A stretch of 64,000 nt of DNA. Source: Phycisphaerae bacterium. Lineage in GTDB: Bacteria > Planctomycetota > Phycisphaerae > Phycisphaerales > UBA1924. The notes under the pieces were generated by a model. That model was not told where the DNA came from. It ran no database searches and was given only the letters and a program-made list of their open reading frames with translations. The stretch spans positions 310,001-374,000 of the forward strand of contig BJHL01000003.1 in the NCBI GenBank assembly GCA_014192545.1, written 5' to 3'. Made by a program: the position numbers and the translations under genes. Position 1 is the stretch's first letter, and the number at the start of each line of letters is the position of its first letter. Positions 18,803 to 23,131 of the stretch are shown piece by piece.

Positions 18803-19511
18803 TCAATTGCCTTGTGATGCTTCACGTCGACGTGCAACTGCGTTCATGCTCACACGCGTGAAACGTTCTGCGTCGCGCCTCGTCAGTCCTGCTCGCCGAG
18901 CGACGAGTGCCGCGCCGATGTGCGAGTCGCAGCGGAGCTTGGCGTAGAGCGACTTTTTATGACTGATGATCGTTTCCGTCGAGCGATACAGGGCTTTGGT
19001 GATCTCGGCGGTGTCCTGACCTTGCCCTGAGCATCGACAGCACTTCGACTTCGCGAGGCGACAATGCGGCAGGCAAGCTGTACTCGTTGTACTCAGCTTC
19101 GAAGAACTCTGATCCGGTGTACAACTCCGACACCAGATCGCCTGCGACTCGATGGTGAATTGCGATGATTGCGCGCTGCTCGCTGCCGTCTTGCAATCGC
19201 AGCGGGTGCACGTGGGTTATGTATTGCTCGCCACACATCACGCTGCGAAACGCCAGCGATCTTTCTTGTGTCAGGCATCGCTCGACGATCGCCATGCGTT
19301 CTTGGGTCAGTTCATGCGAGAAGACTTCGGTCACGTTGCGTCCGATGATTTCTGTTGTCGGAGTCTGCTCTAGCCGTTGGCGATTGCGTTCGACTGCGGG
19401 CGACTGCGCGAGGATTGTGCCGTCCTCTGTCACCACGCTGAACATGACGCCGCTCTCTACAAGAGCCGCGAGGGAAATCGAGCCGCCAGACAATCGCGAA
19501 ACGTTCAACAC
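18803..19511 (-). pseudogene. LuxR-type regulator split by a +1 frameshift
   Basis: The first frame encodes a PAS-like sensory half (SVVTEDGTILAQSP...) up to LSPREVEVLSMLRA and then goes out of frame, ending after a further 60 bases. Removing one A at about 19022 restores a complete LuxR HTH: GQDTAEITKALYRSTETIIS, then HKKSLYAKLRC, ending at TGA 18803. This matches the intact paralogue at 21081-21737 (ETVSSHQKSLYAKLKC). Start placed at GTG 19511 because GGAG lies 8 nt upstream; the frame is open to 19634. Either a recent inactivation, a sequencing error or a recoding event; no slippery homopolymer is evident. Confidence 0.8.
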
Positions 19512-19717
19512 AGAAGTTCTCCGAGTTCGCGTCACCTTGGCACGACGGGCACCAGCACAAATAGCGACGCGAGGGGATACTTCGTCGCATGCAGGCAAAG
19601 GAAACTTATTCACAACAACTTGGTACCCAAACACCGTGACTTAGGAATCGCTTTACCGTTGGAATACGATGTTTGTTGTTCATACCCCGTGCAAACGGGA
19701 CGCGAAGGACAGGTAGC

Positions 19718-21080: not shown

Positions 21081-21737
21081 CTAGTCGTTATCAACGCGGG
21101 GGCTGGCAATGCGCGGAACATCGCGCAGGCTCAAGCCTGCGCGCCGAGCGATCATCATCGCTTGCATCCGTGATGCACACTTCAGTTTCGCGTATAGCGA
21201 CTTTTGGTGGCTCGACACCGTTTCGGTCGAGCGATGTAATCTGTCCGCAATTTCGGGTCCGTCGGCGCCGCTGGCCAGCAACGCGAGCACTTCAGCCTCG
21301 CGCTTGGTCAAGTTCGCCAGAATGCCAAAGTCGTTGAAGTCGGCTTCAGCATAATCGCTGGTCGCGAATGACTCGCGATCAAGAACGCCTTCTGTTCGCA
21401 CGTGCAGCAAGAGCGCAACGGCTTGCCGGAACGTCTTGTCATCTGGAAGTGGCATCATATGCGAGACAAACTGCACGCCGCTGACAACGCTCCGCAACAC
21501 GATCGGCTTCGCGTTTGAAATGGCGCGTCGAACATACGCCAATCGCTCGCGTCCTCGCCCATTTGGAATCAGCCGCACGATGTTTCGTTCCGGCACATCG
21601 TCGATACGTCCACTTTCGACCCCTAAGACCCGCAACAACTCGGGGGACATGTGATACAACGTGCCGTCAAAGCCAACCACACTCGTCAGGAGCGAGCCGT
21701 CAATGAAGAGTTGCAGTGGAACGCGATAACCTTGCAT
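21081..21737 (-). CDS. LuxR-family transcriptional regulator
   Basis: 218 aa. The N-terminal about 130 residues look like a PAS-type sensor (VVGFDGTLYHMSPELLRVLG), and the C-terminal 65 form a LuxR/GerE helix-turn-helix (LTKREAEVLALLASG; DGPEIADRLHRSTETVSSHQ). No receiver domain, so regulation would be by ligand or partner. Paralogous to the frameshifted gene 1.6 kb away. Start ATG 21737; an in-frame GTG lies 30 bp upstream. Target genes unknown; the intervening EEP-domain gene is a candidate. Confidence 0.88.
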   Translation of the reverse strand: MQGYRVPLQLFIDGSLLTSVVGFDGTLYHMSPELLRVLGVESGRIDDVPERNIVRLIPNGRGRERLAYVRRAISNAKPIVLRSVVSGVQFVSHMMPLPDDKTFRQAVALLLHVRTEGVLDRESFATSDYAEADFNDFGILANLTKREAEVLALLASGADGPEIADRLHRSTETVSSHQKSLYAKLKCASRMQAMMIARRAGLSLRDVPRIASPRVDND

Positions 21738-22017
21738 GAGAAATGACACAACCCGACCGGTTTGCACGCGGCCATGTACACATTCGAGCGAAGTGACGCA
21801 TCCGATACGGCCCCCTCGGACCCATCAAGCAACGTATCTTTCGGGGCTTGCGAGCAACAGCAAGTAATACCACCGAGAATTCACCGAAAACCGTTAGAAA
21901 ATTCGTGAAATCTGCTGGTTTCTACCTAGTTCACGCGATGTGAATTCATCTTACGTACAAGACATCCAGCAGCACTTCTACCTGTGTACCGCCCTTGCCG
22001 TTCGTTTTGGCTTTCGT

Positions 22018-23131
22018 TTATTTGCGTTCTTTCTCAGCGCGCCGACGTTTGAGTTCAGCATCGATGAAATCTGCAATTTCGCCACGAAGCACGGCTTCGT
22101 AGTCGCGACTTTCGTGGTTCGTGCGATGGTCCTTCACGCGATTGTCGTAAAAGACGTAGCTGCGAATTTGGCTGCCCCAACCGAGTTCGAGGCTGCCGCC
22201 GCTCGCTTTGGCGATTTCGGCTTCGCGGCGTTCGTCTTCCATTTGCTGCAATTTTGCTTGCAGCAGAGCCAGAGCTTGTGCTCTGTTCTGGGGCTGGTCG
22301 CGATAGGTACTTGCGACGATTTGGATGCCCGTTGGAATGTGCAGCACGCGGACGGCCGACGCAACTTTGTTGACGTTCTGGCCGCCAGGCCCGCGCGCTC
22401 GCACGAACGCTTCGACGACGACGTCTTTCTCAGGAATCTGAATGTCGGTCTCTTCAAATTCGGGCACAACGTCCACCGTGCAGAAGCTGGTTTGCCGCTT
22501 CCCTTGCGCGTTGAAGGGACTGACGCGAGCCAGGCGATGGGTGCCGCGTTCGCACTTCAAGTAGCCGAAGCAGTAAGGCCCCTTGATATGCAGCGTGACA
22601 CTGTCGATGCCGACTTCGGCACCAAAGCCCTTATCGACTTCTTCCATGCTGAAGCCCATCTTCTCGCAATAGAAGATGTACATGCGCAGCACCATTTCGG
22701 CCCAGTCGTTGGCTTCTGTGCCGCCCACACCCGCCGAAATCGTGAGGAAGCAATTGCGATGGTCGTGCCGATCGTTCAGCAGCGACTGAAGCTCGATCTT
22801 CTCCATCTGCGTTTGCAGCTTGAAGAGCGTCTCGTCGGCTTCCTTGAGCAGGTCGTTGTCGCCCGCTTCCCTGGCCATTTCGTAGCCGATCTTGGCATTT
22901 TCCAGATCGTCCATGGCGATAGCGACGGGCTCAACCTGAGCTTTCAGTTGCTTGATTTCGGCGACAATTTTCTTGGCTTCGCTCTGGTTGTTCCAGAATG
23001 TGTCCGAACCCATCTGGGCTTCGAGGTCTCTGCGACGAGCTTGCTTGCTGTCGTAGTTAAAGAGAGTCGCGGATGGTTGCGATCCGCGCCTCAATGTCGT
23101 TGATGACAGGCTGGTGTGCGTCAAAATGCAT
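22018..23131 (-). CDS. prfB: Peptide chain release factor 2, expressed by +1 frameshift at CUU UAA C
   Basis: RF2 releases peptides at UGA and UAA. The large frame ends correctly but its apparent start is out of frame with the family. Reading from ATG 23131 (GGAG 7 nt upstream) gives MHFDAHQPVINDIEARIATI, then RDSL, and a stop TAA at codon 25 (23057-23059). A +1 slip at CTT (23060-23062) continues with NYDSKQARRRDLEAQM, the expected RF2 sequence. The fused product is 370 aa. RF2 motifs: tripeptide SPF (ARVSPFNAQ) and GGQ (ARGPGGQNVNK). This is the classic prfB autoregulatory position, but the stop is UAA, not UGA, and no AGGGGG-like stimulator is seen just upstream. Confidence 0.93.
23057..23063 (-). 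promoter_or_regulatory. Programmed +1 frameshift site in prfB (CUU UAA C)
   Basis: CTT-TAA-C read on the minus strand at codons 24-25 of prfB; the bases 23056-23062 form the heptamer analogous to CUU UGA C of other bacteria. Translation must shift +1 here to make full-length RF2. Confidence 0.85.

Follow-up and report, generated by a model that had tools for sequence, protein, structure and literature searches.

A conserved mRNA hairpin that probably takes the place of the SD-like stimulator at a UAA-type prfB frameshift site in Phycisphaerales

In the 64,000-nucleotide stretch of a Phycisphaerae genome analysed here (the window), the prfB gene lies on the minus strand and is read in two frames. 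A leader of 24 codons, MHFDAHQPVINDIEARIATIRDSL, runs from an ATG at 23131 (with GGAG upstream) into a shift site consisting of CTT (23062-23060), TAA (23059-23057) and C (23056), after which the +1 frame (AAC TAC GAC...) continues as RF2 with its SPF and GGQ motifs and ends at a stop at 22018. Each of these elements had been reported in a first-pass annotation, and all were recovered when the sequence was re-read. The features of the locus, including the hairpin that is the main subject of this report, are as follows.

23060..23131, minus strand: prfB ORF0 (leader), 24 codons from the ATG to the shift codon CTT; read from the sequence, with frame-0 purifying selection in relatives
23082..23092, minus strand: 5' arm of the hairpin (proposed stimulator), GAG-G-CGCGGAU, codons E A R I
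23075..23081, minus strand: hairpin loop of 7 nt, CGCAACC
23064..23074, minus strand: 3' arm of the hairpin, AUCCGCG-A-CUC, codons I R D S; supported by covariation, folding and the lack of anti-SD pairing
23060..23062, minus strand: P-site slippery codon CTT, read by tRNA-Leu GAG, CUU to UUU
23057..23059, minus strand: in-frame stop of ORF0, TAA (TGA in most bacteria)
23056..23056, minus strand: +4 base following the stop, a C shared by 199 of 202 sites
22018..23058, minus strand: RF2 coding part in the +1 frame, 346 aa, with SPF and GGQ; RF-1 domain

The site thus has what characterizes a prfB +1 programmed frameshift: an early in-frame stop that RF2 can read, CTT before it and C after it. 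Four matches to the RF-1 domain were found in the genome, none of them a second, unshifted prfB, and prfB is single. RF1 is normal (PAT motif and GGQ present), RF2 carries its usual motifs, a tRNA-Leu(GAG) gene is present and available to slip, and the 3' end of the 16S rRNA is normal with the usual anti-SD (...GGATCACCTCCTTT); an abnormal RF1, RF2 or anti-SD was considered as a cause and ruled out, as all three look normal. Elsewhere in the window, the minus strand carries a LuxR-type ORF (18957-19634) that is apparently paralogous to the intact ORF at 21081-21767. Its DNA-binding part goes on in a different frame (near 19030), no slippery stop is present, and the ORF has the look of a pseudogene or of a one-base error.

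That full-length RF2 needs a shift at this place, as the first-pass annotation had proposed, agrees with an alignment in which about 200 distinct relatives share the leader, the CTT, the stop and the +1 continuation at the same position; this agreement rules out a sequencing error or a lost base at the shift site. The ATG lies exactly 23 codons before CTT in 129 of 133 SD-less relatives, and leader pN/pS among relatives is 0.41 in frame 0, versus 1.3 and 2.0 in the other frames; to judge by these comparisons, the leader is translated in frame 0 and is under purifying selection. The window's own +1 frame happens to stay open upstream back to a TTG (23124), and an in-frame start there was ruled out, as most relatives have a stop a few codons upstream in the +1 frame. 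Because this stop closes the +1 frame in most relatives, the shift is needed, and on the comparative evidence it is required for RF2.

Stop codons differ in the factors that read them: UGA is decoded by RF2 only, UAA by RF1 too. The presence of UAA instead of UGA at the shift site, which the first-pass annotation had singled out, is real and is less novel than it had seemed, for TAA was found in 1.4% of 8,164 frameshifted prfB genes in an mBio survey (PMC12421855), which describes UAA as scattered without fixation in clades and the SD as hyperconserved, and the consensus YTT_TRA_C was already in print in 2013 (PMC3711429). What that annotation missed is that UAA is the norm of a clade, and that a conserved hairpin abuts the shift codon in place of the missing SD. 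TAA is also present in most of the nearest relatives' prfB sites, and it makes up 102 of the 133 SD-less sites of the class (the remaining 31 have TGA); the new element is that UAA is the majority stop across a Phycisphaerales clade, coming close to clade fixation. On a quick RF2 protein tree of 202 sites, in which the SD-less clade is sampled more densely, parsimony places a single gain of TAA at the root of a Phycisphaerales clade with 127 leaves, followed by roughly a dozen reversions to TGA and by further independent TAA gains, all change counts being approximate. The reconstructed stop changes all fall in an SD-less background (15 of 15, on 47% of the branch length; naive p 1e-5), and TAA occurs together with a GGGA element at two sites, L117 and L321; taken as paired independent events, UAA and SD loss offer few informative pairs on the tree. 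The many exchanges of UAA and UGA in the SD-less background suggest that a stop read strictly by RF2 can be dispensed with there.

Low genomic use of UGA found no support as the origin of UAA: in the one TAA genome G025, UGA closes 27 of the 41 genes sampled, and UAA closes 5. Outside the order, four matches of CGYGAYTCNCTTTAAC fall elsewhere than prfB and one (in G117) lies at prfB. A single metagenome-assembled genome (L080) has GTT TAA A at its prfB site, not CTT TAA C; both the shift codon and the +4 base are unusual, and this may be an assembly error.

The canonical prfB cassette of E. coli and most bacteria is AGGGGG NNN CUU UGA C, with the E. coli SD duplex 3 nt before CUU, and the RF2 shift is the textbook case of SD-driven programmed frameshifting, its dependence on mRNA:rRNA pairing being treated as general. 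The prfB of the window has neither AGGGGG nor AGGAGG 3 nt before CTT, and its stop is TAA, not UGA. Hybridisation energies confirm the earlier remark that an AGGGGG-type element is missing upstream of CTT: for the 17 nt before CTT, the mean duplex energy with the anti-SD is -0.2 kcal/mol in SD-less sites with TAA and -0.6 kcal/mol in those with TGA, compared with -4.5 kcal/mol in SD-type members of the class and -5.8 kcal/mol in other planctomycetes. In the SD-less clade the leader has practically no pairing with 16S rRNA. Planctomycete prfB genes outside the class mostly have AAGGA or similar a few nucleotides before CTT, and other Phycisphaerae have CGGGA upstream of CTT; in the window's order the sequence there is CGCGA, which corresponds to a change of an Arg codon from CGG to CGC. 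CGG, which would restore GGG, is found in only one site (L117) of the 127-leaf order-level clade, while it accounts for 17-37% of Arg codons in genomes of the order.

The leader contains a hairpin in which GAG-G-CGCGGAU is complementary to AUCCGCG-A-CUC around the 7-nt loop, forming 7+3 bp separated by a G.A mismatch. Its 3' arm ends one nucleotide before CTT, in the same stretch as the SD-like element of canonical prfB, and the window leader folds into it with a z of -2.2 against dinucleotide shuffles; a wider structure around the shift site gave nothing beyond shuffles. All ten pairs are 88-100% paired in the 102 TAA sites and 90-100% paired in the SD-less TGA sites, and the seven upper pairs are 75-94% paired in SD-type sites of the class. 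The lower stem extends over two bases of the E-site codon; it is 90-100% paired in SD-less sites versus 17-56% in SD-type class sites, as expected if this stem compensates for the lost SD.

Our survey of prfB sites covered Planctomycetota, and in sites outside the class the hairpin is not conserved. A covariance model matched once in each of 222 of the 248 class genomes, and in only 11 of the 140 out-of-class genomes sampled; the outside matches are mostly low-scoring and are no proof of a hairpin there, as the model includes the shift site itself. No described Rfam family matched the hairpin, the only hit being a sub-threshold chance match elsewhere in prfB. In the window's order, the eight in-frame prfB genes examined are all without the hairpin and have CGC, never CGG, in the position of the 5' arm (Fisher p 4e-10, uncorrected for descent). 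Within that order, L119, L141-L143 and L322-L325 carry a single-frame prfB with no shift site or hairpin; these are frameshift losses, mostly in family f6.

Across 73 diverse class sites, the covariation score of the structure is 0.182, versus 0.098 in shuffles (none of 500 as high) and at most 0.113 for slid structures. The pair formed by the third base of an Ala codon (GCN) and the third base of an Arg codon (CGN) is GC in 33, CG in 31, UA in 2 and GU in 2 of these 73 sites, and its mutual information is 0.70, with any other third-position pair at 0.24 or less. On the RF2 tree, same-branch double changes number 8 at this pair (1.5 expected), five of them keeping a standard pair on both sides, and 7 at the next variable hairpin pair (3.4 expected), most double changes resting on single lineages. 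The Ala-Arg pair is also formed in 60 of 60 further class sites, a fraction biased upward by their selection on covariance-model score, while their split (CG 45, GC 14, GU 1) is still informative. L265 and L268, two sites from a single family, are identical in the loop and nearly so in the leader peptide; their arms differ only by the compensated flip.

Codon choice in the leader follows the hairpin. Two Arg codons, five codons apart in the same genes, show opposite choices, the first being CGG in 128 of 133 sites and the second CGC in 125 of 133; in all three TAA genomes sampled, CGC (0.46-0.56) is commoner than CGG (0.17-0.25). The hairpin is more stable than codon shuffles that preserve the amino acids (mean z -2.4). 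From these alignments, the hairpin is maintained by compensatory synonymous changes in both arms. The E-site Ser codon (23063-23065 in the window) is TCT in 98 of 133 sites, TCT being only 3-7% of Ser codons in the sampled genomes; TGG replaces it in some members of the class.

We consider it likely that this prfB is an autoregulatory +1 frameshift gene in which an mRNA hairpin replaces the SD:anti-SD stimulator, and we infer that the hairpin stimulates the shift from its position, its conservation and an engineered precedent. When a GC-rich hairpin was engineered next to the E site of CUUUGA, +1 shifting in E. coli extract reached about 60% of the level obtained with an SD; the hairpin acted only without RF2, less when destabilised, and was weaker than an SD (PMC6321510), and the same paper recalls that extension of a duplex into the E site raises +1 shifting. 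Under the proposed mechanism, a ribosome facing scarce release factor would pause while CUU occupies the P site and UAA (or UGA) the A site, and the hairpin would refold behind it. The lower stem would then compete with the E-site codon (UCN), favouring release of the E-site tRNA and movement of the mRNA, whereupon tRNA-Leu(GAG) would slip from CUU to UUU and synthesis would resume at AAC, yielding full-length RF2. The lower 3-bp stem, overlapping the E-site codon, may fail to form in the ribosome. With UAA in the A site, the shift should be damped by both RF1 and RF2, a sharing of the feedback that follows from the known specificities of the factors, and the quantity sensed would be total UAA-releasing capacity, not RF2 alone.

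The SD-type class members have both elements: the hairpin is present, and its 3' arm includes a weak SD-like GGGA. There the hairpin could mask or modulate the SD and not act alone. As a history of the element in Phycisphaerae, it seems likely that the hairpin came first, with GGGA in its 3' arm; that one synonymous flip of a C-G to a G-C pair killed the SD and kept the hairpin; and that the stop was then freed to become UAA, making the sensor no longer specific to RF2.

As an alternative, an ordinary prfB frameshift, representing a rare UAA variant whose degenerate SD still works and nothing else special, would fit the canonical CTT, stop and +4 C, the 1.4% of UAA sites already known (PMC12421855), and the GGGA kept at the same place by SD-type relatives. 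We regard it as quite unlikely, given that 133 sites show practically no pairing with the anti-SD, that CGG persists only in L117 within the 127-leaf clade despite supplying 17-37% of Arg codons, and that the covarying hairpin would be left without explanation. The hairpin could instead be real and serve another role (slowing the ribosome before the stop, hiding an SD-like element, or tuning mRNA stability), while CUU UAA C with a weak E-site codon shifts unaided. E-site codon composition does by itself affect shifting (cited in PMC6321510), and SD-type members also have the hairpin, with GGGA in its 3' arm; yet its position is fixed one nucleotide from CTT in class sites, its lower stem is strengthened (90-100% versus 17-56% paired) precisely in lineages that lost the SD, and in-frame prfB is without it, which makes such a role unlikely.

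Highly improbable is an account without any RNA element, in which the two arms are complementary because the leader peptide EARI..IRDS is conserved, or because of a nascent-peptide effect. In its favour are the conservation of this peptide and the partial self-complementarity of R-I/I-R codons; against it, two synonymous third positions covary, the two arms use opposite Arg codons, the codon-shuffle z is -2.4, and in-frame relatives have a similar peptide but CGC.

With the hairpin taken as stimulator, the system resembles canonical prfB in its ORF0 of about 25 codons, its CUU slip codon, its RF2-readable stop, +4 C and +1 continuation, and in having a stimulator directly 5' of the E-site codon; unlike canonical prfB, the SD-less lineages have an mRNA hairpin and not mRNA:16S rRNA pairing, and in most of them the stop is UAA. 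It shares CTTTAA C at the shift site with the UAA-type motifs of PMC12421855, in which UAA is scattered and the SD hyperconserved, whereas in the present lineages UAA extends across a clade and no SD is left. The engineered refolding hairpin of Huang et al. 2018 (PMC6321510) is likewise stable, lies next to the E site of an RF2 shift site and acts in the +1 direction; that hairpin is a synthetic 12-bp one in a reporter, whereas the present one is natural, covarying, genomic and inside prfB. We found no report in the open-access literature of a natural prfB with an upstream-hairpin stimulator.

Such prfB genes are likely to be given wrong starts by annotation pipelines built around AGGGGG...TGA. 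The Phycisphaerae provide a natural set of variants for tests: SD plus hairpin, hairpin only, UGA or UAA, and lost frameshift. If the proposed reading is true, a duplex behind the E site is what matters, not pairing with rRNA as such, and the clade-wide use of UAA bears on whether the feedback requires a stop that RF2 alone can read.
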